A stretch of 64,000 nucleotides of DNA from Methylococcus sp. Mc7. Lineage in GTDB: Bacteria; Pseudomonadota; Gammaproteobacteria; Methylococcales; Methylococcaceae. Positions 1-46,862 of the stretch are shown here, piece after piece. How positions within the stretch are numbered: the stretch's first letter is position 1; each line of letters starts with the position of its first letter. The position numbers and the translations under genes are program-made. Where the stretch lies: NCBI RefSeq assembly GCF_019285515.1, contig NZ_CP079095.1:2388501-2452500 (forward strand), given 5' to 3'. Under the pieces are notes generated by a model. It saw only the letters and a program-made list of their open reading frames with translations. It searched no databases and was not told the DNA's origin.

Positions 1-1172
1 CCGACCTGGCTAGGCACGTCGAGGAGTTCCGCCATCTTTTCGGTGAAGCCGTCAGGGCGCAATCGCGTAGTGCCTTTCCGATTGGTTGCCTACTCGGTGG
101 AGGGCTGGATTCTTCCTCGGTCCTTTGTATGGCTGCCCGCCTCATCCCGGATAAGGCACGGCTGACCAGCTATTCTATGATCTTCGACCGGTTCCCCTGC
201 GATGAGCGTAAATTCATCGAACAGACGGCCCGGGAAGCTGGCGTGGAGCGGATCTTCACGGTGGCGGATGCGAATCCTGTCGAGGGTTGGGGTGGCCTTA
301 AAGCCTGCTACGGCTTACACCGGGACTGGCCGATCCAGGGTATGCCCATGAGAGCCCTCTGGCCCTTGCTGGACGAGGCCAAGAGCCGCGGGGTGAGGGT
401 GATGCTGACTGGTGTCGGCGGCGACTCCGTGATCCAGGGGAGTCCCTATTATCTGGCCGACCTGCTGACATCGGGTCGTTGGAGCGCCTTGGCCGGTGAA
501 TTGATACAGTATCGTTTTTCGCCAAATATACTCTGGTACTGGATGATGGAGCCCGTATTGCCAGAATGGCTTTGCAGGCTCGGCAGGCGGATAAAGGAAT
601 TTATACGGCCTCATAGCGATGCGTCGTTGTTGTTGGGAAATGAGGCGCTAGGAGTTGGGCAGGAACACCCCTATCTAGTGCGCGCCCGTTTTGAGAGCGC
701 CAGCGCTTGGCAAGAGGCGAGTTTCATCGCTAATCCGGGAAGCAGTATGGCTCTAGACGGTGAGTGGGATGGGTTAGGCCATCGCGGCACGTTGGAGTTT
801 CGCCATCCTTTCTATGATGCCAGACTGATGGACTTTCTTATGTCGGTTCCATCCGAGGAAAAAAGACGGCAAGGAACTACCAAATATATTCTCCGCGAAG
901 CGATGAAAACCGTATTACCAGAAAGTATACGACTGCGCAAAGGTAAGGCGGAGTTCTCACCTGTCTTCGCATCGATACTCGATTCTATAAAATTCGATCC
1001 GGGCTCTTTCACGCTCACCCGGGTTGGGATTGTGGAAGCAAACAGGGTGGCAAGCGTTATCGAACATCGAACAGTCCAGCCCACTCCCATGAGTTCGCTT
1101 GTTTTGTGGCAACTGGCTGCCCTGGAAATTTGGTATAGCACTTACTTCAAACCAATAGGAGATCAAACATGA
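1..1172 (+). CDS. Asparagine-synthetase-like lasso cyclase (partial, 5' end outside window)
   Basis: The reading frame is open from the window edge, so the N-terminal part, including any glutaminase domain, is missing. The visible part starts just before the ATP-pyrophosphatase loop, read as LGGGLDSSSV at about 93-122, the signature of class B asparagine synthetases and of lasso cyclases (class C proteins), which adenylate a side-chain carboxylate. Further matches are the GVGGDSV segment near residue 135 of the visible protein and the C-terminal FRHPFYDARLMDF and LRKGKAEFSP stretches. The stop codon overlaps the precursor ATG (ATGA), so the two are translationally coupled. The context of PqqD-like, HprK-like and nucleotidyltransferase genes favours a RiPP cyclase over free asparagine synthesis. 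Family assignment is strong; a role on this precursor is inferred. Confidence 0.88.
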   Translation, partial: DLARHVEEFRHLFGEAVRAQSRSAFPIGCLLGGGLDSSSVLCMAARLIPDKARLTSYSMIFDRFPCDERKFIEQTAREAGVERIFTVADANPVEGWGGLKACYGLHRDWPIQGMPMRALWPLLDEAKSRGVRVMLTGVGGDSVIQGSPYYLADLLTSGRWSALAGELIQYRFSPNILWYWMMEPVLPEWLCRLGRRIKEFIRPHSDASLLLGNEALGVGQEHPYLVRARFESASAWQEASFIANPGSSMALDGEWDGLGHRGTLEFRHPFYDARLMDFLMSVPSEEKRRQGTTKYILREAMKTVLPESIRLRKGKAEFSPVFASILDSIKFDPGSFTLTRVGIVEANRVASVIEHRTVQPTPMSSLVLWQLAALEIWYSTYFKPIGDQT

Positions 1173-1342
1173 ACGTATCTGAACAGCAAGATATTCGGCT
1201 TATCAACGAAGAGCCAAAAAAACTTTACACGGCACCAGTACTGAGCGAATACGGAAATATGACTACCTTGACACAAGGTAGCTTAGTTTTGTCCGTTGTA
1301 ACACCGCTGACTGCCACTTTAGCCGATGTGGCGGGGGGGTAG
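1169..1342 (+). CDS. RiPP precursor peptide with lasso-type leader (57 aa)
   Basis: This short gene starts at an ATG with a strong AGGAGA ribosome site at 1157-1162 and overlaps the cyclase stop by 4 bases. The peptide has the lasso leader signature: KK-x-Tyr20-x-x-Pro23-x-Leu25-x-x-x-Gly29, then Leu-Thr-Gln-Gly at 34-37. If cleavage follows the usual Thr(-2) rule, the core starts at Gly37 and has 21 residues, beginning GSLVLSVVTP and ending LADVAGG. The core is rich in Thr, Ser, Val and Leu. Its only acidic residue is Asp at core position 18, not at 7-9 as in known lasso peptides. Identification as a leader-bearing precursor is firm; a classical lasso product is doubtful. The 3' end holds a run of seven G encoding the final Gly-Gly. 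Confidence 0.85.
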   Translation: MNVSEQQDIRLINEEPKKLYTAPVLSEYGNMTTLTQGSLVLSVVTPLTATLADVAGG

Positions 1343-1352
1343 TCTATCGTCC

Positions 1353-2225
1353 ATGCGCTTCTCTGCCTATGGGACTTTCATTGAGTCAGAAATTCCGTTG
1401 ACCGGTTTGCCGCCTCCTTCTGGCAAGCCGGTCAGCGCAGTAAAGTTTAAATCGGGATGCCCTCACCATACGTTGGCGGATCAGAAACGCATAATAGAAT
1501 CGCCTAAAGGATGGGTAAATATTGTGTGTGCGGGGGGGGGAAGTCCTGTATTTCGCATTGACGAAGTGGGAGAGTTTCATCTCTGTCCTGAGGAATCAGC
1601 GATTTGCTGTCGCCTCATGCCGGGAACTTCCATGGAGAGAGTGCGCTATTGGCTGATGCATTACGTGCTTCCTGTCTATCTCTTGCTGGATCCCCGATTC
1701 GATTTTCTTCATGGTTCGGCAGTGGATATTGATGGCGGAGGCGTGGCGTTTCTGGCCGATGCCATGGGTGGAAAATCTACGCTTGCTAATTTCTTCGTCC
1801 AGCAAGGGCACGGCCTATTGACCGACGATCATCTGGGTATTTTTCGAAGGGACGTATTCCTGGCAATTCCCAGCGTCCCTTTTGTCCGTCCGTACCGGGA
1901 GTTCGAGGATCTTGGGAACCCGGTCGAGCGATTCGCTTCCCAGCCTTTGCCGCTACGGGCTATCTATCTGCTTGAGCTGTCCGATGGACCAGCGCGGGTA
2001 ATACCGCGCGCGGGACTGCCGGTAGCAGTGGCGCTCGCGAGGAACCGCCGGCTAAGGGTTTCGAACAAGTTTACCGAGTTGGCGAAGACCCGTTTTTCCC
2101 GTCTCGCCGAACTGGCTGCCTCGATTCCCGTGGCCAAACTCTGTGTCCCTCGCGATTTATCGCGTTTACCGGAAGTGTATGAAACCATTTTGGCTCACCT
2201 TGGGGAACTCCATGATTCGATATGA
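1353..2225 (+). CDS. HPr kinase/phosphorylase-like protein of the RiPP cluster
   Basis: The 290-residue protein carries an HprK-type P-loop at about residues 133-145 (LADAMGGKSTLA), followed by the typical second motif GLLTDDHLGI at 154-163. In known lasso clusters such HprK homologues can phosphorylate the precursor, usually at a C-terminal Ser; the core here ends in Gly-Gly, so the substrate is unclear. The first Gly of the Walker motif is replaced by Ala. ATG 1353 was chosen because an upstream in-frame start would overlap the precursor and no better start is seen. The gene overlaps the radical SAM gene by 14 bases. Codons 60-63 are formed by a run of nine G at 1532-1540, an obvious slippage site. 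Confidence 0.8.
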   Translation: MRFSAYGTFIESEIPLTGLPPPSGKPVSAVKFKSGCPHHTLADQKRIIESPKGWVNIVCAGGGSPVFRIDEVGEFHLCPEESAICCRLMPGTSMERVRYWLMHYVLPVYLLLDPRFDFLHGSAVDIDGGGVAFLADAMGGKSTLANFFVQQGHGLLTDDHLGIFRRDVFLAIPSVPFVRPYREFEDLGNPVERFASQPLPLRAIYLLELSDGPARVIPRAGLPVAVALARNRRLRVSNKFTELAKTRFSRLAELAASIPVAKLCVPRDLSRLPEVYETILAHLGELHDSI

Positions 2226-3246
2226 CCTCATTGGTTTGACATACACTAGGGCTTGTCCGCTGACGTGCCGGCATTGCATCACGGAGTCCTCGCCCCATAT
2301 CAAGGGCAAGATGCAGATGGAACAAGTCAGTGAATATCTCAAGGTGATCCCATCGTTCGCCCCTGGCGTTTGCTTCACCGGGGGCGAGCCCATGTTGTAT
2401 TATCAGGATATCTTGGAACTGGTTCGCCAGGCGAGGGATTTTGGACTTAAATCATCTCTTGTTACCGGGGCTGGATGGGTGCGAGGCGAGTCCTCGACCA
2501 GGTCACGCATTAATACCTTGGCTGCAGCGGGATTGGGACATATCTGTATCTCCTGGGACCAGTATCATGAAGAGTTTTCATCACGCGAACGGCCTCTGCG
2601 GCTGGCACGTCTTGCCATTGAAGCAGGATTGGGTGTGGCTGTTCGCGTCGTTGCCATCACGGAGGCCCAGAAAGAAGAGTATCACGCCATGTTCGATGGC
2701 TTGCCCGTATATTTGCAATCTCAAGCCCCCGTTAAATTGGGACGAGCGACTTCTCTGCGGCCGCAGCATTTCGTTCGCACGGAAGAGCCGCCTTTAGGGG
2801 TATGCGCTGTTGTCCTGACTCCCGTCATTGAGCCCGATGGTGCTGTCTATGCTTGTTGCGGTCCTGCATATTATTGTGGGACATTCTCGCCCTTAAAGCT
2901 CGGGAATACTAATGACGAGCCGCTCGAAGACATATTGGGACGCGCAGTCCAGGATCCGATCCTGGAAATCATTTTCACTGCGGGACCGCACGGCCTCTAC
3001 CAGTTACTTAGAGATCATCCAGTGGGGCGAGAGCGCTTCAAGGCCCGCCCGGAATACTCTGGCATTTGCGAGCTATGCCTGGATATCACTAACGATACCG
3101 AACTCGTAAACATAGTGCGGGAGCGACTCGCGGATAGCAAGGCTCAACGCTTACGTGTGGCATCAAAATTGTGGATGGAAAATAAGTTGTTACCAGAAAT
3201 AAGAAAGAGTCAACGCCGACAGAAGCAAATCGAACAGGAAGCATAA
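2212..3246 (+). CDS. Radical SAM protein with SPASM-like C-terminal cysteines
   Basis: The 344-residue protein has the radical SAM cluster motif C15-x3-C19-x2-C22 and the GGEP motif at 57-60. The C-terminal half has six further cysteines (198, 215, 216, 222, 286, 289, the last two as CELC), consistent with one or two auxiliary iron-sulfur clusters as in SPASM/Twitch peptide-modifying enzymes. Start 2212 has a GGGGA element about 8 bases upstream and overlaps the HprK-like gene; an earlier in-frame GTG at 2143 would extend deeply into that gene. The PqqD-like gene follows after 5 bases, an arrangement typical of radical SAM enzymes that act on leader-bound peptides (PqqE-PqqD). Enzyme class is certain; the reaction is not predictable from sequence. 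Confidence 0.87.
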   Translation: MIRYDLIGLTYTRACPLTCRHCITESSPHIKGKMQMEQVSEYLKVIPSFAPGVCFTGGEPMLYYQDILELVRQARDFGLKSSLVTGAGWVRGESSTRSRINTLAAAGLGHICISWDQYHEEFSSRERPLRLARLAIEAGLGVAVRVVAITEAQKEEYHAMFDGLPVYLQSQAPVKLGRATSLRPQHFVRTEEPPLGVCAVVLTPVIEPDGAVYACCGPAYYCGTFSPLKLGNTNDEPLEDILGRAVQDPILEIIFTAGPHGLYQLLRDHPVGRERFKARPEYSGICELCLDITNDTELVNIVRERLADSKAQRLRVASKLWMENKLLPEIRKSQRRQKQIEQEA

Positions 3247-3251
3247 TAATC

Positions 3252-3527
3252 ATGTCATTAAGCGATATGATGATTACTATATCAGAAGAAGTGGTTTTCG
3301 AGAAAGTCGGCGACGAGATGGTGCTGCTTAATCTCGAAACCGGAGCCTATTTCGGACTCAATCCGTCGGGTAGCCGCATGTGGGAGTTGCTCGTCGCTAC
3401 AAAAAGTCCTGTGCGCGTTGTAGAATCCATGCATCATGAATATGACGTTGCTGTCGACGTTCTCGAACAGGATTTGGCGAATCTGATCAGCGAGTTGAAA
3501 GAGAAAAAACTCATAGAGGTGGGATAG
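3252..3527 (+). CDS. PqqD-family RiPP recognition element protein
   Basis: This is a 91-residue free-standing PqqD-like protein. Diagnostic features are EEVVFEKVGDEMVLLNLETG near the N-terminus, then AYFGLNPSGSRMWELL and a helical C-terminus (VLEQDLANLISEL). Such proteins bind the leader peptide and present it to the partner enzyme: B1 in lasso systems, PqqD with radical SAM enzymes. Here it could serve both the radical SAM enzyme directly upstream and the cyclase. No separate B2 (transglutaminase-like leader peptidase) gene is visible in the window; it could lie upstream of base 1. Confidence 0.88.
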   Translation: MSLSDMMITISEEVVFEKVGDEMVLLNLETGAYFGLNPSGSRMWELLVATKSPVRVVESMHHEYDVAVDVLEQDLANLISELKEKKLIEVG

Positions 3528-3591
3528 GGGATTCCCGCGCTACCTGAAATGTCTCTTGGTGTCCCTGAGAGGGCGGGAGTAGGGGAATTGA

Positions 3592-4467
3592 ATGTCACTT
3601 AACCGTCATATGGTTCCATGCATTCCTTGTAAAACGTCAAAGGCCAGTGGGTGGAACGTGAGGAACAATCATTCTAACTCGCCTCTCCCGGATTTCTGCA
3701 TGGACGACGTCCCTACTCCGTCAGGACAAGCCCCATCCGCTAAAACGGTGGCGGCTTCGCTGTTTTATGAACACCGCCTGAGCATGTTAGGGAAGGAGTT
3801 CGCGGCGGTTGGGCTGGCGCCCGTGATTGTCAAGGGACAGGCCGTTGTCGATCTCGCGTTTCCGAAGGGAGAGATTCGTTTAGCGGGTGACGTAGACATT
3901 TTGGTGGGCGACGAGGCTGAAGCCGTCGTTGATGTTTTGACGGGATTGGGTTATGAGGAAATTCCACCGCATTCTACGCATTTCCATTTCGTAGATCGCA
4001 GCTTTGTTCAGCAAGGAAAACGATTGCCGAATTTGGTCGAACTGCATCGATGTCTCGACAAAATTCTCTTACGCCCGATTCCATATGATGAGATCCTTAC
4101 TCGCGCGAAACCTTCCGGACGACCCGGTTTCCGCTATCCAGAAATAGAAGATTTATTCCTGTTGGTCATCCTGCACGCCAGCTCGGACATCTACTTCGAT
4201 CCGGCCAGGGTCGAGCGGGATCTGTGGTTTCTGTTGAATCACGGCAAGCCCGACATGGATATCGTCTGGTCACGAGCCCAGCAATGGGAGTTGTCGCGTG
4301 CGCTTCGTCGGTTGTTGAACAGGCGTTATCGACAAGCCAGGAGCAAGCCGCCCGGTCCGTTTGTTTTTCTGGCGAATCAGGCGTTCTGGCATGACAACTT
4401 CGTCACCGTTTTGTGCGGCGTGGCTAAGTATTCCTATGCGCGTCTGCTGGACCGGCTGTACCCTTGA
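3592..4467 (+). CDS. Nucleotidyltransferase-family protein 1 of the RiPP cluster
   Basis: The 291-residue protein belongs to the uncharacterised nucleotidyltransferase family often found in lasso and related clusters. The core is VIVKGQAVVDLAF followed by a pair of acidic metal ligands in LAGDVDILVGDE (about residues 102-114). A helical region (EDLFLLVILHASSD) follows, corresponding to the conserved His-containing segment seen in this family. It starts at an ATG with an AGGGGA element upstream, 64 bases after the PqqD-like gene. In related clusters these proteins are linked to tailoring or resistance, but no activity can be assigned here. The first 45 residues look unconserved. Confidence 0.75.
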   Translation: MSLNRHMVPCIPCKTSKASGWNVRNNHSNSPLPDFCMDDVPTPSGQAPSAKTVAASLFYEHRLSMLGKEFAAVGLAPVIVKGQAVVDLAFPKGEIRLAGDVDILVGDEAEAVVDVLTGLGYEEIPPHSTHFHFVDRSFVQQGKRLPNLVELHRCLDKILLRPIPYDEILTRAKPSGRPGFRYPEIEDLFLLVILHASSDIYFDPARVERDLWFLLNHGKPDMDIVWSRAQQWELSRALRRLLNRRYRQARSKPPGPFVFLANQAFWHDNFVTVLCGVAKYSYARLLDRLYP

Positions 4468-4542
4468 AGTTTGATCGGAGTTCCGCTGACGCTTCGTGGG
4501 GCGGCGCAGCGGGCACCTGCGCTCCGTCCAACGATATCGCGA

Positions 4543-6348
4543 ATGTTTGATCGCTACCGCCTGCATCGGCTCTGGCAGCTCTGCCGGTCCGTGCAACTCG
4601 TCTGGCAAAGCAGCCGGAAGTCGACGCTGATACATGGGGGCTTGATGTTGGTTCTGGGGCTTCTGCCGGTGGCGGGCCTCTACTTGGTCAAACTCATCAT
4701 CGACACGGTGACCGCGCCGGGGGCGCCGGAGTGGGAAAGCATCGGAGGCTTGCTCGTCGCGGCTTTGAGCATTGCGGTACTCACCGACTGGCTCCGTGCC
4801 TTGGATGCGCATGTCAGTGAGATTCAATCTCAGCAAGTCACGGATTACGTGCAGGACTTGCTTCACAAGCAGGCGATCCGCTTGGACCTCGGCTATTACG
4901 AAAATCCCGAATTTCAGGACAATTTGCACCGTGCGCAGACCGAGGCGGCTTATCGGCCGGCTTTGATCGTCGACCAGCTCATCAGGCTTTTGCAGAATGC
5001 CGTTTCCCTGGGGGCTGTGGCATTGCTGCTGCTGGCGTTTCATTGGGAGTTGACCCTTGGCCTGTTTCTTTTCATGTTGCCCATCCTTTTCGTCCGGCTG
5101 CGGCATGCGCGACTTCAGCATCGGCATTGGCAAAATTGGACTGCTCGGCAACGTCAGACGCACTATTTGAGCCAATTGCTGAACTTCCAAGACCACGCCA
5201 AGGAGGTAAGGCTATTCGGGTTGGGGAACCATCTTCACCAACGGTTTATGGACTTGCGGAAGTCGATTCGTCAGGACCGCTTGGCGTTATCGCGCGATCG
5301 AACCAAAGGCGAGGCGCTTACTCAAGGTTGCGCTTCGTTGGGTGTTTACGGCGCACTTGCATTTCTCGCTTACGAGACCATGGCGCGAGCCATTAGCGTC
5401 GGCGACATGGTGGTCTATTACCAGGCACTGCAGCGGGGTCAAACGTTGTTGCGGGATTTATTCGCCAGCGCCGCCGGTCTTTACGAGAATGCGCTGTTTC
5501 TGTCGAACTTTTACGACTTTCTATTGCTGGAACCCCGGGTGAAAGAACCGGAAGCGCCCTGCGTGATTCCGCACCCGCTGCGGGGTGAAATTCGCTTTGA
5601 ATGCGTCAGCTTCGACTATCCGCACGGAACTCGTCCGGTATTGAAAGCAGTGGATTTCACGATTCATGCGGGGGAAAAAGTGGCCCTGGTCGGCAAGAAC
5701 GGTGCCGGAAAGACTACGCTGATCAAGTTGTTATGCCGGTTGCACGATCCAACGGAAGGTCGAATAACCGTGGATGGTATTGATCTTCGCAATTTCTCGA
5801 GCGACGAGTGGCGAAAGCAAATTGGTGTCGTGTTCCAGGACTTCGGCCGTTATCAATTTACCGCCCGGGAGAACATTGGGTTTGGTGACCTTTCTGCTCT
5901 GAATGTGCCTGGACGAATCGAACGAGCGGCCGGACTCAGCGGAGCGGACGGAGCCATAGCTAGTCTGCCGCATGGCTACGACACATTGCTGGGCACTTTG
6001 TTTGCCGGCGGAGAGGAACTGAGTATCGGCCAGTGGCAACAGATCGCGATTGCCCGGGCGGCCTTACGATCGGCGGCGATCATCATCTTGGACGAACCGA
6101 CCAGCGCACTGGATTCGGAGGCCGAGGCCCGGGTGCTGGAGCGGTTCCGGCAACTGGCGGAAGGGCGGACGGCGATCCTGATCAGTCATAGGTTGTCTAC
6201 GGTACGCTTGGCCGACCGGATTTTCGTGATTAATGATGGCCAGATCAGTGAGGCTGGAACTCATGCCGAGCTTCTTAGGCTCAATGGAGCTTATGCCAGT
6301 ATGTTCCATGCCCAGGCTCGACATTATAAATCCTCCCGAACAAGCTAA
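4543..6348 (+). CDS. ABC transporter, fused permease/ATPase (RiPP exporter)
   Basis: This is an exporter half-transporter of 601 residues from ATG 4543. The N-terminal half has about six membrane segments, and the ATPase half has Walker A VGKNGAGKTT, Q-loop VVFQDFG, signature LSIGQWQQ and Walker B IIILDEPTSALD. There is no N-terminal C39 peptidase domain, so it exports a peptide already cut, as lasso D proteins do. A TTG at 4471, four bases after the upstream stop, is an alternative start that adds 24 residues; neither start has a strong ribosome site. Export of the mature peptide, giving self-protection, is inferred from position. Confidence 0.87.
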   Translation: MFDRYRLHRLWQLCRSVQLVWQSSRKSTLIHGGLMLVLGLLPVAGLYLVKLIIDTVTAPGAPEWESIGGLLVAALSIAVLTDWLRALDAHVSEIQSQQVTDYVQDLLHKQAIRLDLGYYENPEFQDNLHRAQTEAAYRPALIVDQLIRLLQNAVSLGAVALLLLAFHWELTLGLFLFMLPILFVRLRHARLQHRHWQNWTARQRQTHYLSQLLNFQDHAKEVRLFGLGNHLHQRFMDLRKSIRQDRLALSRDRTKGEALTQGCASLGVYGALAFLAYETMARAISVGDMVVYYQALQRGQTLLRDLFASAAGLYENALFLSNFYDFLLLEPRVKEPEAPCVIPHPLRGEIRFECVSFDYPHGTRPVLKAVDFTIHAGEKVALVGKNGAGKTTLIKLLCRLHDPTEGRITVDGIDLRNFSSDEWRKQIGVVFQDFGRYQFTARENIGFGDLSALNVPGRIERAAGLSGADGAIASLPHGYDTLLGTLFAGGEELSIGQWQQIAIARAALRSAAIIILDEPTSALDSEAEARVLERFRQLAEGRTAILISHRLSTVRLADRIFVINDGQISEAGTHAELLRLNGAYASMFHAQARHYKSSRTS

Positions 6349-6518
6349 GGAATTTGTGATCAAGTACTTCGACGGGCTTTGGATGGACGCTAACGTTTTG
6401 ATTCCGTTCGTTGTGAATTTATCGCAAGGATGGAATCCGCTTGTCCAACGCATCTTTACGCCTATTTCGCCTGAGTAGTCCGACGATACACCTCTCTAAC
6501 AGTAAAAGGGTGTTTGTG

Positions 6519-7715
6519 ATGATTTCGTCCGAGTATCACCTTTCAGCGGAAACCCAAATCCTTCTGTTCTGTGCTAGGACACATCTCGATGCCGATGAAC
6601 AGGCTACGTTACAGAAGCTGGTGGCTCGGCCAAATCTCGAGTGGAGCCGATTTATGCAATCCGCAGTCCGACACGGCGTTGTACCCATGGTGTATACGCG
6701 CCTCAAGGCATTGTCTCTGTCGGAAATGCCCCTGGAAATCTGGGCAGAACTGGAGAAACGCTACCATGCGATCGTGTTCCGAAACCTTCGGCTTGGGGGC
6801 GAGCTGGTTCGCTTGGAAAAAATCTTCGCCGCTGAGGGTATCAATGCGGCATGGTTTAAGGGGCCGGTGCTAGCCCGGCAGGTATATTCAAACGTGACTT
6901 TTAGGGAGTGTTCGGACCTGGATGTTCTCATCCCACGTGAACGGGCCGATGACGTCAATAGGGTACTCCTGAACCAGGGCTATCGCCCGCTATACGACCT
7001 AACTACCCACCGTCAGCAACAGCTTCACGAGAAAATATCCAACGAGCATTGTTTTGTAAATTCCCAGAACATTTTTGTCGATGTGCATTGGGCTCTCACG
7101 GAGAGTATCTATTCATTTTCAAACCGTGGATATTTGGCTACTCGGAACGTCGAGTTGTTGGGGCGGCAGGTTGTCACATTTGACGTGACCGACACCCTCT
7201 GTTATCTCTGTTATCACGCCAGCAAGCATGGATGGGCTCTGCTCCGATGGGTTTGCGATATCGCCGAACTGATCCGGTGTAATCCTGAATTGGACTGGGA
7301 TTTTCTGATGACGTCGGAGCGGTTGCCGATAGGCACTCCCCGCATGTTGCGGCTCGGTCTTATCCTTGCCCACAGCGGTTTAGCGGCGCCGCTGCCCGAG
7401 GCTGTGAGAACATGGGCGGTGTCGGACCGAAAAGCCGTCTCCATGGGACGGGCAATTCTCCAATTTGGGGCTATCTCCACGACTAAGTTCCCGTCTTTGA
7501 TCTACGTCAGCACGATGGATTCCATAAGTGACAGGCTACGCTATTGGATCAGGCCAGTGGTGCGGCCGTCCGCGCTGGAACTTGAAGTTGTTACGCTGCC
7601 CCGCTTTCTGTTCTTCCTATATATTCCGCTCAGATATATCAGGTTAATCAAAAAATACTCCGGACAGATTCCATTTTTTCGAAGGACGAAGAGCCGATTC
7701 TCGTCAACGGCTTGA
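6519..7715 (+). CDS. Nucleotidyltransferase-family protein 2 of the RiPP cluster
   Basis: The 398-residue protein is a second, longer member of the same nucleotidyltransferase family. The core reads AAWFKGPVLARQVY then FRECSDLDVLIPRE, with the Asp pair in SDLDVLI, followed by VDVHWALTES and a conserved helical segment (CYLCYHASKHGWALLRWVCDIAELI). ATG 6519 is preceded by AAAGGG with good spacing; an upstream TTG at 6441 is less likely. It is separated from the ABC gene by about 170 bases and is the last gene of the cluster. Two such proteins in one cluster suggest two substrates or a heteromeric enzyme. The activity is unknown. Confidence 0.75.
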   Translation: MISSEYHLSAETQILLFCARTHLDADEQATLQKLVARPNLEWSRFMQSAVRHGVVPMVYTRLKALSLSEMPLEIWAELEKRYHAIVFRNLRLGGELVRLEKIFAAEGINAAWFKGPVLARQVYSNVTFRECSDLDVLIPRERADDVNRVLLNQGYRPLYDLTTHRQQQLHEKISNEHCFVNSQNIFVDVHWALTESIYSFSNRGYLATRNVELLGRQVVTFDVTDTLCYLCYHASKHGWALLRWVCDIAELIRCNPELDWDFLMTSERLPIGTPRMLRLGLILAHSGLAAPLPEAVRTWAVSDRKAVSMGRAILQFGAISTTKFPSLIYVSTMDSISDRLRYWIRPVVRPSALELEVVTLPRFLFFLYIPLRYIRLIKKYSGQIPFFRRTKSRFSSTA

Positions 7716-7883
7716 TTCGTTCTTGCGGGTATGTGTGACTGTTGCCTTGTCGTGATTTCTCCGGTGTTTTGTCTGGCGGAAGGCCATATTCAACTCAATT
7801 TGTATAGTCGCCCATTTTTTAAGATTCGGATCCGGTCACCAATTGAGCGGTGGTTGCTGGCCGACGTTTGCTGCCAGCGACGA

Positions 7884-7987
7884 CGTAACCGTTCAGTCCC
7901 CCGGGAGCGCGGGCGTCCCGCCGGCTGAAAAAGCGGCCAGGATGGCCGCGTTCCCAGCAAAAAAAGTTGGGGGGCTGAACGGATACG
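7884..7987 (+). repeat. About 100-bp element with terminal inverted repeats, copy 1
   Basis: The ends CCGTTCAG (7889-7896) and CTGAACGG (7975-7982) are perfect inverted repeats, and the interior has nested palindromes such as GCGGCCA-gga-TGGCCGC. A near-identical copy in the opposite orientation lies at 46524-46623, so this is a dispersed mobile-like repeat (MITE or REP class) without coding capacity. It occupies most of the informative sequence of the 384-base gap between the RiPP cluster and cysN. Nothing else convincing is seen in that gap apart from a hairpin just after cysN. Confidence 0.85.
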
Positions 7988-8078
7988 CGACGACAGGGGT
8001 GTTCCAGGAAATGCTGGACATCTCGGCGGCCGGCGCCGTTGTCGCCCGGGGAATGCGATTGGAGCGAATGAAATGGCA

Positions 8079-8096
8079 CGCGCTCGCAACAGCGCG
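8079..8096 (-). terminator. Hairpin after cysN
   Basis: Read on the minus strand, CGCGCT-gttgcg-AGCGCG forms a 6-bp stem three bases after the cysN stop, but only scattered T follow. It is a possible terminator for the sulfate operon. Confidence 0.35.
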
Positions 8097-8099
8097 GAA

Positions 8100-9767
8100 T
8101 CAGATCTCGAAGTCGGGAGCCGCCGCGCGAGGCGGATTCAATAGCTCGAGCACGGCCTCGATGTCGAGGTGATCCGGCGGAACGATCAGGTTGAGTTCGT
8201 CCGCATTCGGTGCCACTCCAGTGTCGGCGGCGCAGAGGCAGACGATGCCGGACTGCATGATGTTCTCCGCCACCAAGGCGGCTTGAGCGCCGAGCCGATC
8301 GGCTTCGATCACCGCGCAAACGTAGCCGCGTTCGAACAACTGCCGCTCGAGCCGATAAGCCATGTCCTGTCGCTGAGGACCGGTGAGCCAGACGGTGACG
8401 GCCTTCTGGCCGAAGCGGGCGGCGCGCTCCTCGGCGGTGACCTTGCGGAAGCCGGTCTCGCCCTGCACCGGCCCTAAGATCATGCCGGCTCCGACCGTGA
8501 CGTTGGTCAGCCGGTCGATGACGATGAAGGCGCCGGTGCCCTTGCAGCGGGCGTAGGCGTCGAATGCCAGCGGGGCGCTCAGCGCCAGCTCGCACAGGCC
8601 GATCTCGTTGAGATGGAGCTGGCCGGCCGGGTGCCGTTCCAGGGTGTTGACGTCGATCCGGTGACGGATGGCGGCCACCGAGCCGGTCAGGGTCCGGGTG
8701 GCGTGCTTGAGGAGGTATTGCTTCCCCGGCATCAGCGGGGCTTCGGTCATCCACACCAGATGCGCTTCGAAGCGACTGTCGAGGTGCGGCAGGCGGTCCG
8801 GATGCACCAGGAGGTCGCCCCGGCTGACGTCGATCTCGTCCGCCAGGGTGAGGGTCACGGCCTGGGGCGGGAAGGCTTGGTCCAGTTCGCCATCGTAGGT
8901 CACAATGGACTGGATCCGGCTGGTGGTCTTGGCCGGCAGCACCAGAACCGGGTCGCCGGTCTTGAACACCCCGGCGGCGACGGTGCCGCTGTAGCCGCGG
9001 AAGTCGAGGTGGGGCCGGTTGACGTACTGCACCGGGAAGCGCGGGTCGTCGAAGTTCCGGTCCTGGGCGATCTCGAGGGTGTTGAGCAGCTCGATCAGGG
9101 ACGGTCCGCCGTACCAGGGCATGGCCGCGCTCTTGTGCACCACGTTGTCGCCGTTCAAGGCGGAGATGGGGATGAAGCGCACGTCGTGCAGCTCGAGCTT
9201 GTCGGCGAAGGCCAGGTAGTCGGCGCGGATGCGGTCGAACACGGCTTCGCTGTGGTCCACCAGGTCCATCTTGTTGATGGCGACCAGGACGTGCTTGATC
9301 CCCAGGAGCGAGACGATGTAGCTGTGGCGCCGGGTCTGCACCTGCACCCCGTGGCGGGCGTCGATCAGGATGATGGCCAGGTCGCAGGTGGAGGCGCCGG
9401 TGGCCATGTTGCGGGTGTACTGCTCGTGGCCGGGGGTGTCGGCGATGATGAACTTGCGCTGGGCCGTGGAGAAGTAGCGGTAGGCCACGTCGATGGTGAT
9501 GCCCTGCTCGCGCTCGGCCTGCAGGCCGTCGACCAGGAGGGCCAGGTCGAGCTCGCCGCCGGTGGTGCCGGACTTGAGGCTGTCGCGCCGCACCGCGCTG
9601 AGCTGGTCCTCGTAGATCATCTGGGAGTCGTGCAGCAGCCGCCCGATCAGGGTGCTCTTGCCGTCGTCGACGCTGCCGCAGGTCAGGAGCCGCAAGAGCT
9701 CCTTCTGCTCGTGCTGGGCCAGGTAGGCGTGGATGTCGGTGCCGATGAGGTCGGATTGGTGTGACAT
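8100..9767 (-). CDS. cysN: Sulfate adenylyltransferase subunit 1 (GTPase) with vestigial APS-kinase tail
   Basis: CysN uses GTP hydrolysis to drive ATP + sulfate to APS together with CysD. Present are the GTPase motifs GSVDDGKST (G1), DTPGHEQY (G3) and NKMDLVD (G4), and EF-Tu-like beta-barrel domains to about residue 440. The protein has 555 residues against about 475 for E. coli CysN. The extra C-terminal 100 residues ([13 protein letters not shown] onward) align by eye with the start of APS kinase, where VWLTGLSGAGKST is expected, but the Walker A Gly-Lys-Ser/Thr is gone and the domain is half length. It is probably a relic of a CysNC fusion. ATG 9767 lies 4 bases after the cysD stop. Confidence 0.95.
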
Positions 9768-9771
9768 GATT

Positions 9772-10767
9772 TTAAAAATACCCTTCCTTCTTCTTTTCTT
9801 CCATGGACCCGGCCTGGTCGTGGTCGATGAGCCGGCCCTGGCGTTCGGAGGTCTTGGTCAGCAGCATTTCCTGGATGATCTCGGGCAGGGTGGCGGCGTC
9901 GGATTCGATGGCGCCGGTCAGGGGATAGCAGCCCAGGGTGCGGAACCGCACTTTCTTCCGCATCGGCACCTCGCCCGGCTCGAGCGGCATGCGCTCATCA
10001 TCCACCATGATCAGCATGCCGTCCCGCTCGACCACCGGCCGCTCGGCGGCGAAGTACAGGGGGACGATGGGGATGTTTTCCAGGTAGATGTACTGCCAGA
10101 CGTCGAGCTCGGTCCAGTTGGAGAGGGGGAACACGCGGATGCTCTCGCCCTTGTTGATCTTGCCGTTGTAGAGGTTCCACAGCTCGGGGCGCTGGCTCTT
10201 GGGGTCCCAGCGGTGGTGCTTGTCGCGGAACGAGTACACCCGCTCCTTGGCGCGGGATTTCTCCTCGTCCCGGCGCGCCCCGCCGAAGGCGGCGTCGAAG
10301 CGGTATTGGTCCAGCGCCTGCTTGAGCGCTTCGGTCTTCATGATGTCGGTGTGCTTCTTGCTGCCGTGGACGAAGGGGCTGATGCCCTGGCGCACGCCGT
10401 CCTCGTTGACGTGGATGATGAGGTCCAGCCCCAGTTCCCGCGCCCGCCGGTCGCGGAAGGCGATCATGTCGCGGAACTTCCAGGTGGTGTCGACGTGCAT
10501 CAGCGGAAACGGCGGCTTGCCCGGATAAAACGCCTTCATCGCCAGATGCAGCATCACCGCCGAGTCCTTCCCGATCGAGTACAGCATCACCGGCCGCTCG
10601 AATTCGCTCACCACTTCCCGAAAAATGTGGATGCTTTCCGATTCCAGGTGCTTCAGGTGGGTCTGCCTGCGCTCGTGTGGCGGCCGAACGAGGGAGGGGG
10701 TGAACGGCTTTCCGGGAACGGAATGTTCGCGGTAAGCCACTGAGCTGAGTTGAGCGCTGCGAGCCAT
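9772..10767 (-). CDS. cysD: Sulfate adenylyltransferase subunit 2
   Basis: CysD is the catalytic PP-loop subunit that forms APS. It shows the PP motif region [16 protein letters not shown], then [28 protein letters not shown] and [16 protein letters not shown], all typical. From ATG 10767 the protein has 331 residues, about 30 more than usual; the excess is an N-terminal stretch before [16 protein letters not shown] at 10803 overlapping the upstream stop would add 12 more residues. The gene sits between the EAL-like gene and cysN in one minus-strand operon. No cysH is in the window, so whether APS or PAPS is reduced cannot be told. Confidence 0.95.
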
Positions 10768-46244: not shown

Positions 46245-46523
46245 CCGGAGCGGGCCGTTCCCGCGCTCCCGGCCGCCGCTCGCTGACGGGCGACGATAAG
46301 CCGTCCGGGGGGATACATGGCACGTTTCCAGGTTCGGTTGGGGGAGGGGCTCCGGGGGGATTTTTTTAGGAAAAGGTCAAGTCCCCGTAAATCCTCTTTG
46401 ACGCGTGGAGCCGAAGCGTCACCATTTCATGCGGAGCCCGACTGACCGGCCCAGCCCCCTGGGAAGCGAGTCGCAGCGACGTGTTTACCTTCCAGGCCCG
46501 CCCCACATCCCCACAACGCGCCG

Positions 46524-46623
46524 CGTACCCGTTCAGCCTCCCTTTTTTGCTGGGAACGCGGCCATCCTGGCCGCTTTTTCAGCGGGTGGGACACCCACGC
46601 TCCCAGGGGACTGAACGGCTACC
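46524..46623 (-). repeat. About 100-bp element with terminal inverted repeats, copy 2
   Basis: The reverse complement of this segment matches 7884-7987 with few differences, including CCGTTCAG/CTGAACGG ends (46529-46536 and 46611-46618) and the GCGGCCAGGATGGCCGC core. The surrounding 817-base gap (46245-47061) otherwise holds two palindromes near its right end and no gene. Confidence 0.85.
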
Positions 46624-46862
46624 GCGCCGCCTCTGTCTCCGAGACGCATATCGCCACGCCCCCTTGTTTCCACCTTCGATAGGTCCAAGACTCCGACAAA
46701 ACACCGGGCGTTTGCAGGGGGCGTCGCACTACCCACTTCAGTTCACTTCACTCGACTTCCGATCGCCCCCTCAAAGTTGCTGGCACTCGTCTGTCCAGCG
46801 CGTCGCTGCGTGACGGACAAGGATCTTTCCCGTTCACCGACCGGCAAGGTTTTGGTTCGTAT

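Follow-up and report, generated by a model that had tools for sequence, protein, structure and literature searches.

A lasso-type gene cluster of Methylococcus sp. Mc7 carries a radical SAM enzyme that may epimerise valine or isoleucine

Lasso peptide pathways are usually recognised by their cyclase. The stretch of DNA analysed here (64,000 nucleotides, hereafter the window; Methylococcus sp. Mc7, contig NZ_CP079095.1, positions 2,388,501 to 2,452,500 of the forward strand) begins inside a lasso-cyclase gene, with the rest of the cluster start lying upstream, and continues with a lasso-type precursor, a kinase, a radical S-adenosylmethionine (SAM) enzyme, further tailoring genes and an exporter. 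The locus raises the question of what a radical SAM enzyme does in such company and whether the product is still a lasso peptide. Our preferred reading, held with moderate confidence, is that the locus represents a branch of the ribosomally synthesised and post-translationally modified peptides (RiPPs) built on a lasso chassis, in which the defining step would be radical epimerisation of Val or Ile and the cyclase would be optional.

Coordinates are given in the window, on the plus strand, or in a longer record (L002, equal to the window position plus 12000) extended upstream by 12 kb of sequence from this genome. Open reading frames (ORFs) and family scans agree on the gene order B2–C–A–HprK kinase–radical SAM–B1 (PqqD-like)–NTP_transf_5–ABC–NTP_transf_5, where ABC is the ATP-binding cassette exporter, and the cluster genes named in a first-pass annotation of the window are present where it placed them.

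Orthologues of the radical SAM enzyme were sought in several samples. The family search found one in 3 of 38 genomes; the class sample gave 2 of 274 (the window genome and one relative at 26% identity, L004) and in the phylum sample the window genome was the single match among 299. A short-pattern scan of genome contigs returned 90 stretches and three confirmed loci. Searches of an acidobacterial family matched 8 of 300 genomes at E 1e-15, four of them at E 1e-120 or better, and searches of the corresponding class matched 5 of 399 at E 1e-40, with genome G964 added. This yields ten loci in eight genomes and two phyla: the window, L007 and L008 in Methylococcaceae, and L011, L039, L040, L041, L042, L052 and L053 on the acidobacterial side. 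All acidobacterial matches that were kept score E 1e-120 or better; G530 (2.2e-37, or 7.1e-41 in the class search), G457, G615 and G589 were left out. By eye, no lasso genes were seen in the ORF lists of the dropped weaker acidobacterial matches (L034-L037, 3-4 kb each) or in the 3.9 kb of L004. Sixteen plasmid records with 20-34% identity were also set aside, as no lasso genes were found in the four surroundings examined. One plasmid, from Allochromatium tepidum (L096), has a distant YydG-like radical SAM gene at 4962-5987, with the Cys-Cys pair described below, among type III-B CRISPR genes.

At all ten loci a lasso-type precursor lies upstream of the radical SAM gene. An HprK kinase is found at nine (L042 being the exception), B1 and NTP_transf_5 at eight each (missing from L042 and L052, weak in L008) and B2 at seven (not L042 or L052; the L008 contig begins inside the cyclase). 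L042, on the minus strand of G711 (9243-10633), is a bare precursor–radical SAM pair: nothing in the 20 kb covered there matches kinase, B1, B2 or NTP_transf_5; the same genome holds a full cluster, L041, elsewhere. The association looks different from the side of the kinase. A kinase profile matched 31 of 250 acidobacterial-class genomes; among the 30 loci examined, two were known radical SAM loci and the other 28 lack a radical SAM gene within 1.5 kb, and therefore lasso clusters with a kinase do not regularly include the enzyme. The expectation in the first-pass annotation that a neighbourhood search would keep these genes together thus holds when the search starts from the radical SAM gene, which accompanies the precursor throughout and mostly the kinase, B1, B2 and NTP_transf_5, and fails when it starts from the kinase. 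These 28 loci served as controls: a cyclase match is present in 20 and a lasso-type precursor in 24 (none was found in L071, L074, L079 and L092, and that of L076 is doubtful, with an 8-residue core). Adding L029 from Methylococcales gives 25 control cores.

Could the radical SAM gene be a passenger, or the whole cluster be decaying? A patchy distribution (3/38 family genomes) and the 28 of 30 kinase loci that lack the gene would fit such an account. So would the empty site in three other Methylococcus genomes (G284, G285 and G286), where coxIII and cysN, which flank the cluster in the window genome, are separated by ~0.2 to 1.6 kb. In L007, from the same-genus relative G283, two genes are split, the cyclase (6551-8402) at its PP-loop and the kinase (8609-9482) at its P-loop, which may be a sequencing error. 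Against this stand the same neighbours in two phyla, the two-gene locus L042 and the ratio of non-synonymous to synonymous substitution (dN/dS) of the radical SAM gene, which at 0.094 against G283, with dS near saturation, is the lowest among the genes compared (NTP_transf_5 genes excluded). Decay or a passenger gene is therefore very improbable in our view, and we are highly confident that the radical SAM enzyme is a true part of the RiPP system.

The enzyme (2212..3246) has Radical_SAM and SPASM matches above Pfam cut-offs and the motif CX3CX2C (C15, C19, C22); C198, C215, C286 and C289 are predicted to bind one auxiliary cluster. Its best NCBIfam model is TIGR04078, the YydG peptide epimerase (76 bits, residues 13-306, against a curated cut-off of 300), followed by a model with 50 bits over residues 12-145 only. 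All eight tested members of the orthologue alignment match TIGR04078, the best at 2.5e-27. A three-orthologue profile matched eight distinct sequences in the PDB; only three, all YydG/EpeE (8ai6 at 5.6e-18, residues 9-300), align over nearly the whole enzyme, the five others covering N-terminal stretches. By these similarities, YydG/EpeE is the closest relative of known activity. Cys216 (codon 2857..2859), adjoining C215, corresponds in the alignment to chain position 248 of the EpeE construct, which we take to be Cys223 (the 25-residue offset is deduced from the lengths, given the native length of EpeE and its D210A mutant). EpeE acts on Val36 and Ile44, and its Cys223 has been proposed as the H-atom donor (PMC8326336; this and the other articles with PMC numbers are cited from excerpts). 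The Cys-Cys pair with the proposed donor is kept in 10/10 orthologues. It was dropped as a private mark of epimerases, being a feature of the wider family: all 15 aligned sequences have it, namely the ten orthologues, an annotated YydG (L098) and four distant relatives.

What the substrates offer narrows the choice of chemistry. The window precursor (1169..1342, 57 residues; identified by ORF, leader motif and alignment) consists of the leader MNVSEQQDIRLINEEPKKLYTAPVLSEYGNMTTLTQ and the predicted core GSLVLSVVTPLTATLADVAGG. Tyr20 of the leader sits 17 residues ahead of the proposed Gly1 (residue 37) and Thr occupies position -2, in line with the Tyr spacing and Thr(-2) cleavage rule of lasso leaders (PMC10368454); YxxPxL and Thr(-2) are thus both present, and the only NCBIfam model matched is a lasso model, below its cut-off. 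The window leader carries an extended signature, YxxPxLxEYG (1226..1255, a motif defined post hoc), of which the EYG triplet is found in 10/10 radical-SAM-linked leaders and 1/25 others (Fisher 6e-8). Cys, Lys and Tyr are absent from all ten cores, and Trp and Arg occur in one each; aromatic residues are missing altogether from the cores of the window, L007, L008 and L011. These gaps remove the partners for thioether, Lys-Trp, Arg-Tyr and aromatic cross-links, and a thioether of the sactipeptide or ranthipeptide type was rejected on the same grounds. Ser, Thr and Leu are present in every core, as is Val or Ile. Ser followed directly by Val or Ile occurs in 10/10 radical-SAM-linked cores and 5/25 control cores (Fisher 1.6e-5), with 3.46/10 expected on shuffling; strict Ser-Val occurs in 8/10 and 3/25. 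In the window this is Ser6-Val7 (codons 1292..1297), and Val7 is the proposed epimerisation site.

Since the cores offer few cross-link partners, a reaction confined to the C-alpha of Val or Ile, as in EpeE, fits them, and on these sequence comparisons the chemistry is, with moderate confidence, epimerisation. The enzyme might instead act otherwise on aliphatic or hydroxyl residues, through a C-C, C-O or C-N cross-link, dehydrogenation or a change at the C-terminus. Low identity to YydG leaves room for this, as do wider-family relatives with unknown reactions and other neighbours, and Thr, Ser and Leu are as universal in the cores as the proposed targets. We nevertheless find it doubtful: the residues used in most known radical cross-links are absent, and the enzyme retains a Cys at the place of the EpeE H-donor.

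The cyclase poses the second part of the question. Its gene enters the window as a 3' part (1..1172; whole gene L002:11310-13172, 620 residues) and matches the lasso cyclase model NF033535 at E 1.5e-145 with 486 bits, below the cut-off of 525. A cyclase is found at 3/10 radical SAM loci, all in Methylococcaceae. A tblastn search with the cyclase of the window (E 1e-3) detected none at the seven acidobacterial loci; it covered ~9 to 10 kb to either side, save at L039, whose contig stops after 2.8 kb in one direction. NF033535 had no match at E 1e-5 in G711 or G422, genomes of unstated completeness; the model also matches 8/14 control genomes. In G422 (Acidipila sp. EB88) PF00733 matched weakly and partially at two places, at E 2e-7 in a gene interpreted as the tRNA enzyme MnmA and at 1.1e-5; the search gave strong matches in the other five genomes. 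Asn-synthetase-like genes matched by NF033535 lie elsewhere in the genomes of G439, G510 and G964.

Lasso rings close at core positions 7-9, on an Asp or Glu acceptor. Neither the window core nor that of L007 has Asp or Glu there, which makes a classical lasso ring unlikely in the window, and we consider it probable that the window product is not a classical lasso. An acceptor at these positions occurs in 23/25 control cores and 5/10 radical-SAM-linked cores (Fisher 0.012); four of those five are cores of acidobacterial loci without a cyclase (L041, L042, L052 and L053), perhaps a trace of lasso ancestry. Asp17 (codon 1325..1327) is the only acidic residue of the window core and the only side-chain carboxylate open to the cyclase. 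An alternative cleavage that places it at position 7 was discarded by eye, as it would leave cores of 11 residues in the window and 8 in L007, beginning with Leu1. The first-pass annotation had envisaged a class defined by carboxylate activation together with a radical step; the failure to find a cyclase at all seven acidobacterial loci and in two genomes, and a window core without an acceptor at positions 7-9, speak against that definition.

On this dual reading a lasso or macrolactam peptide would be modified by both enzymes, the cyclase joining Gly1 to a side-chain carboxylate, Asp17 in the window and the classical Asp8 in L008. The cyclase is indeed an open 620-residue frame whose dN/dS relative to G283 is 0.15 in one part and 0.23 in another, and is on that account still under constraint; these ratios speak against a simple story of a degenerate cyclase. 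Each Methylococcaceae core, moreover, has exactly one acidic residue (Asp17 in the window, Asp17 in L007, Asp8 in L008). L008 combines its Asp8 with the standard PP-loop SGGLDSS, and a radical-modified lasso is possible there. The window and L007, on the other hand, lack an acceptor at 7-9, and we know of no lasso ring as large as one closed at Asp17 would be. In both, the first Ser of the PP-loop is Gly (GGGLDSS in the window), where the 12 further Asn-synthetase-type genes that the pattern picked up have SGG[LV]DS (an extra match in L093 is of another kind); the L007 cyclase frame is broken, and no cyclase was detected at the acidobacterial loci. Dual modification is in our judgement unlikely, and the cyclase is most likely a lineage-specific extra.

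The remaining proteins are those of a lasso pathway. The PqqD-like protein (3252..3527) passes the PqqD Pfam cut-off and scores 52-53 bits with two NCBIfam lasso PqqD models, under their cut-offs of 70 and 80. The closest solved structure is 5v1u (TbiB1; E 1.3e-15), presumably a lasso B1, and the next is 9x90, a lasso PqqD-family chaperone. A role as partner of the radical SAM enzyme alone, as in the radical SAM-PqqD pair of the first-pass annotation, was rejected, since the protein resembles an ordinary lasso B1 with its RiPP recognition element. That annotation saw no B2 leader peptidase; this is right for the window, which is cut inside the cyclase, but not for the locus, where B2 lies upstream at L002:10820-11299 and passes the lasso leader-peptidase model NF033537 (99.8 bits, cut-off 33).

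The HprK-like kinase (1353..2225) is of the lasso tailoring type. Hpr_kinase_C matches at 24.4 bits, below the cut-off of 33.3. Residues H120, G140, K141, S142 and D158 are invariant in eight aligned kinases and position 159 is Asp in five, including the window, and Glu in three, so that the window kinase has the His-Lys-Asp-Asp motif of paeninodin-type kinases (PMC10368454, PMC9266682). Related kinases act on Ser, at the C-terminus in paeninodin (PMC9266682) and at position 3 in BsfA (PMC10368454). A C-terminal Ser is found in none of the ten cores and the window core has no Ser3 either; by analogy we therefore suggest the Ser of the Ser-[Val/Ile] motif as the candidate target. Both NTP_transf_5 nucleotidyltransferase-like proteins score above the family cut-off (PF14907): copy 1 (3592..4467; E 3.9e-21), which is divergent and has an uncertain start codon, and copy 2 (6519..7715; E 2.7e-55). 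In pseudomycoidin a nucleotidyltransferase homologue is required for placing hexoses on phosphorylated Ser (PMC9266682), which may serve as a model for their role. Between the two copies lies the ABC exporter (permease-ATPase, 4471..6348).

Gene content, co-occurrence, family relationships and core sequences are direct observations; from them we infer the following course, including the order of steps, the target residue, the kinase site and the epimerisation itself. B1 would bind the leader, and the radical SAM enzyme would abstract a hydrogen at the C-alpha of the Val (or Ile) that follows Ser in the motif; Cys216 would hand back a hydrogen from the opposite face, leaving a D-residue. The kinase would then phosphorylate a hydroxyl residue, perhaps the adjoining Ser, and NTP_transf_5 would decorate the phosphate. 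B2 would cleave after Thr(-2)-Gln(-1) and the ABC exporter would secrete the product. More tentatively, the loci may form a separate RiPP class descended from lasso ancestors, in which the radical epimerase has replaced the cyclase to give a ring-less, phosphate-decorated D-Val or D-Ile peptide, the cyclase-bearing Methylococcaceae being intermediates.

A number of observations weigh against epimerisation on a lasso chassis. With regard to the enzyme, (i) its YydG score is far under the cut-off; (ii) the Cys-Cys pair is also kept in 4/4 distant relatives of unknown role; and (iii) the ten orthologues have Thr, Ser or Gln at the position that differs as Asp or Ala between two EpeE crystal chains, presumably Asp210. 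With regard to the cores, both motifs, Ser-[Val/Ile] and EYG, were picked post hoc, Ser-Val having been widened to Ile after L052 and L053 were seen; the radical-SAM-linked cores are richer in Val and Ile than the controls, and several of the ten loci are close relatives and not all independent. The kinases of the control loci are only remotely related (E 1e-12 to 1e-20, compared with 1e-114 and better), few family genomes carry the radical SAM gene, and the window cyclase remains open and constrained.

Known systems share parts of this arrangement. The Bsf cluster of Bradymonas shares with this locus the precursor, B1, B2, cyclase, ABC transporter, kinase and nucleotidyltransferase (PMC10368454); paeninodin has the kinase, and pseudomycoidin both kinase and nucleotidyltransferase (PMC9266682). 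For these phosphorylated lasso clusters the excerpts name no radical SAM gene, and the window core differs in having no ring acceptor, no C-terminal Ser and no Ser3. The YydF/EpeX-YydG/EpeE epipeptide system shares an enzyme alignable over nearly its full length, the Cys-Cys arrangement and, in the targets of EpeE, Val and Ile; it differs in that the window enzyme falls below the YydG cut-off and that precursor, leader, peptidase and neighbours are lasso-type. Neither a YydF-type precursor nor the YydF operon partners seen at L098 were found at this locus, whose precursor and neighbours match lasso families. MS-271 likewise has a lasso-type precursor with an epimerised residue, a C-terminal D-Trp made by MslH with the help of B1 (PMC9266682). 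MslH, however, belongs to the CapA family and MS-271 retains its cyclase (PMC9266682); MslH is a metal-dependent acid/base enzyme (PMC10406935), whereas the window enzyme is a radical SAM protein. Proteusins also undergo radical SAM epimerisation of peptide residues, by PoyD-type enzymes, but their leaders are nitrile-hydratase-like and their epimerases have a single cluster and no significant homology to EpeE (PMC8326336). Among the titles and abstract openings searched, in a body of literature that mostly leaves out subscription papers, none describes a radical SAM enzyme that modifies a lasso-type precursor.

A branch with leader, B1, B2 and kinase but another core enzyme would be overlooked by mining that starts from the cyclase. 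It would link radical epimerisation with processing by B1 and B2 under guidance of the leader, and would show how RiPP classes interconvert. With natural loci as small as the L042 pair, the chemistry can be tested directly.

Several minor observations concern the surroundings of these clusters. L029 (G314, 6150-9736) has a lasso-type leader, PqqD, HprK-like and NTP_transf_5 genes in what by eye resembles an exopolysaccharide locus; its core is Gly/Pro-rich, and no cyclase match was found in the 14 kb read. In L008 (G298, 7900-8931) the ABC exporter is followed by two small ORFs, toxin-antitoxin-like by eye, and then by a partial copy of the exporter end. The coxIII–cysN site of G286 (L110, 9673-9795) has a 41-residue stretch 54% identical to the end of the ABC exporter, possibly a remnant of a lost cluster and too short to use as evidence. 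G287 is uninformative on the empty site, its cysN piece lying at a contig end with no coxIII within the 8 kb read. In L007, cysD and cysN fragments flank the cluster, and by eye a transposase-like ORF follows it. Direct copies of a ~100-bp repeat, 85% identical, lie on both sides of the cluster in the window genome, one at L002:10481-10581, 5' of B2, and the other downstream at 7884..7982; a third copy lies on the opposite strand at 46519-46630.

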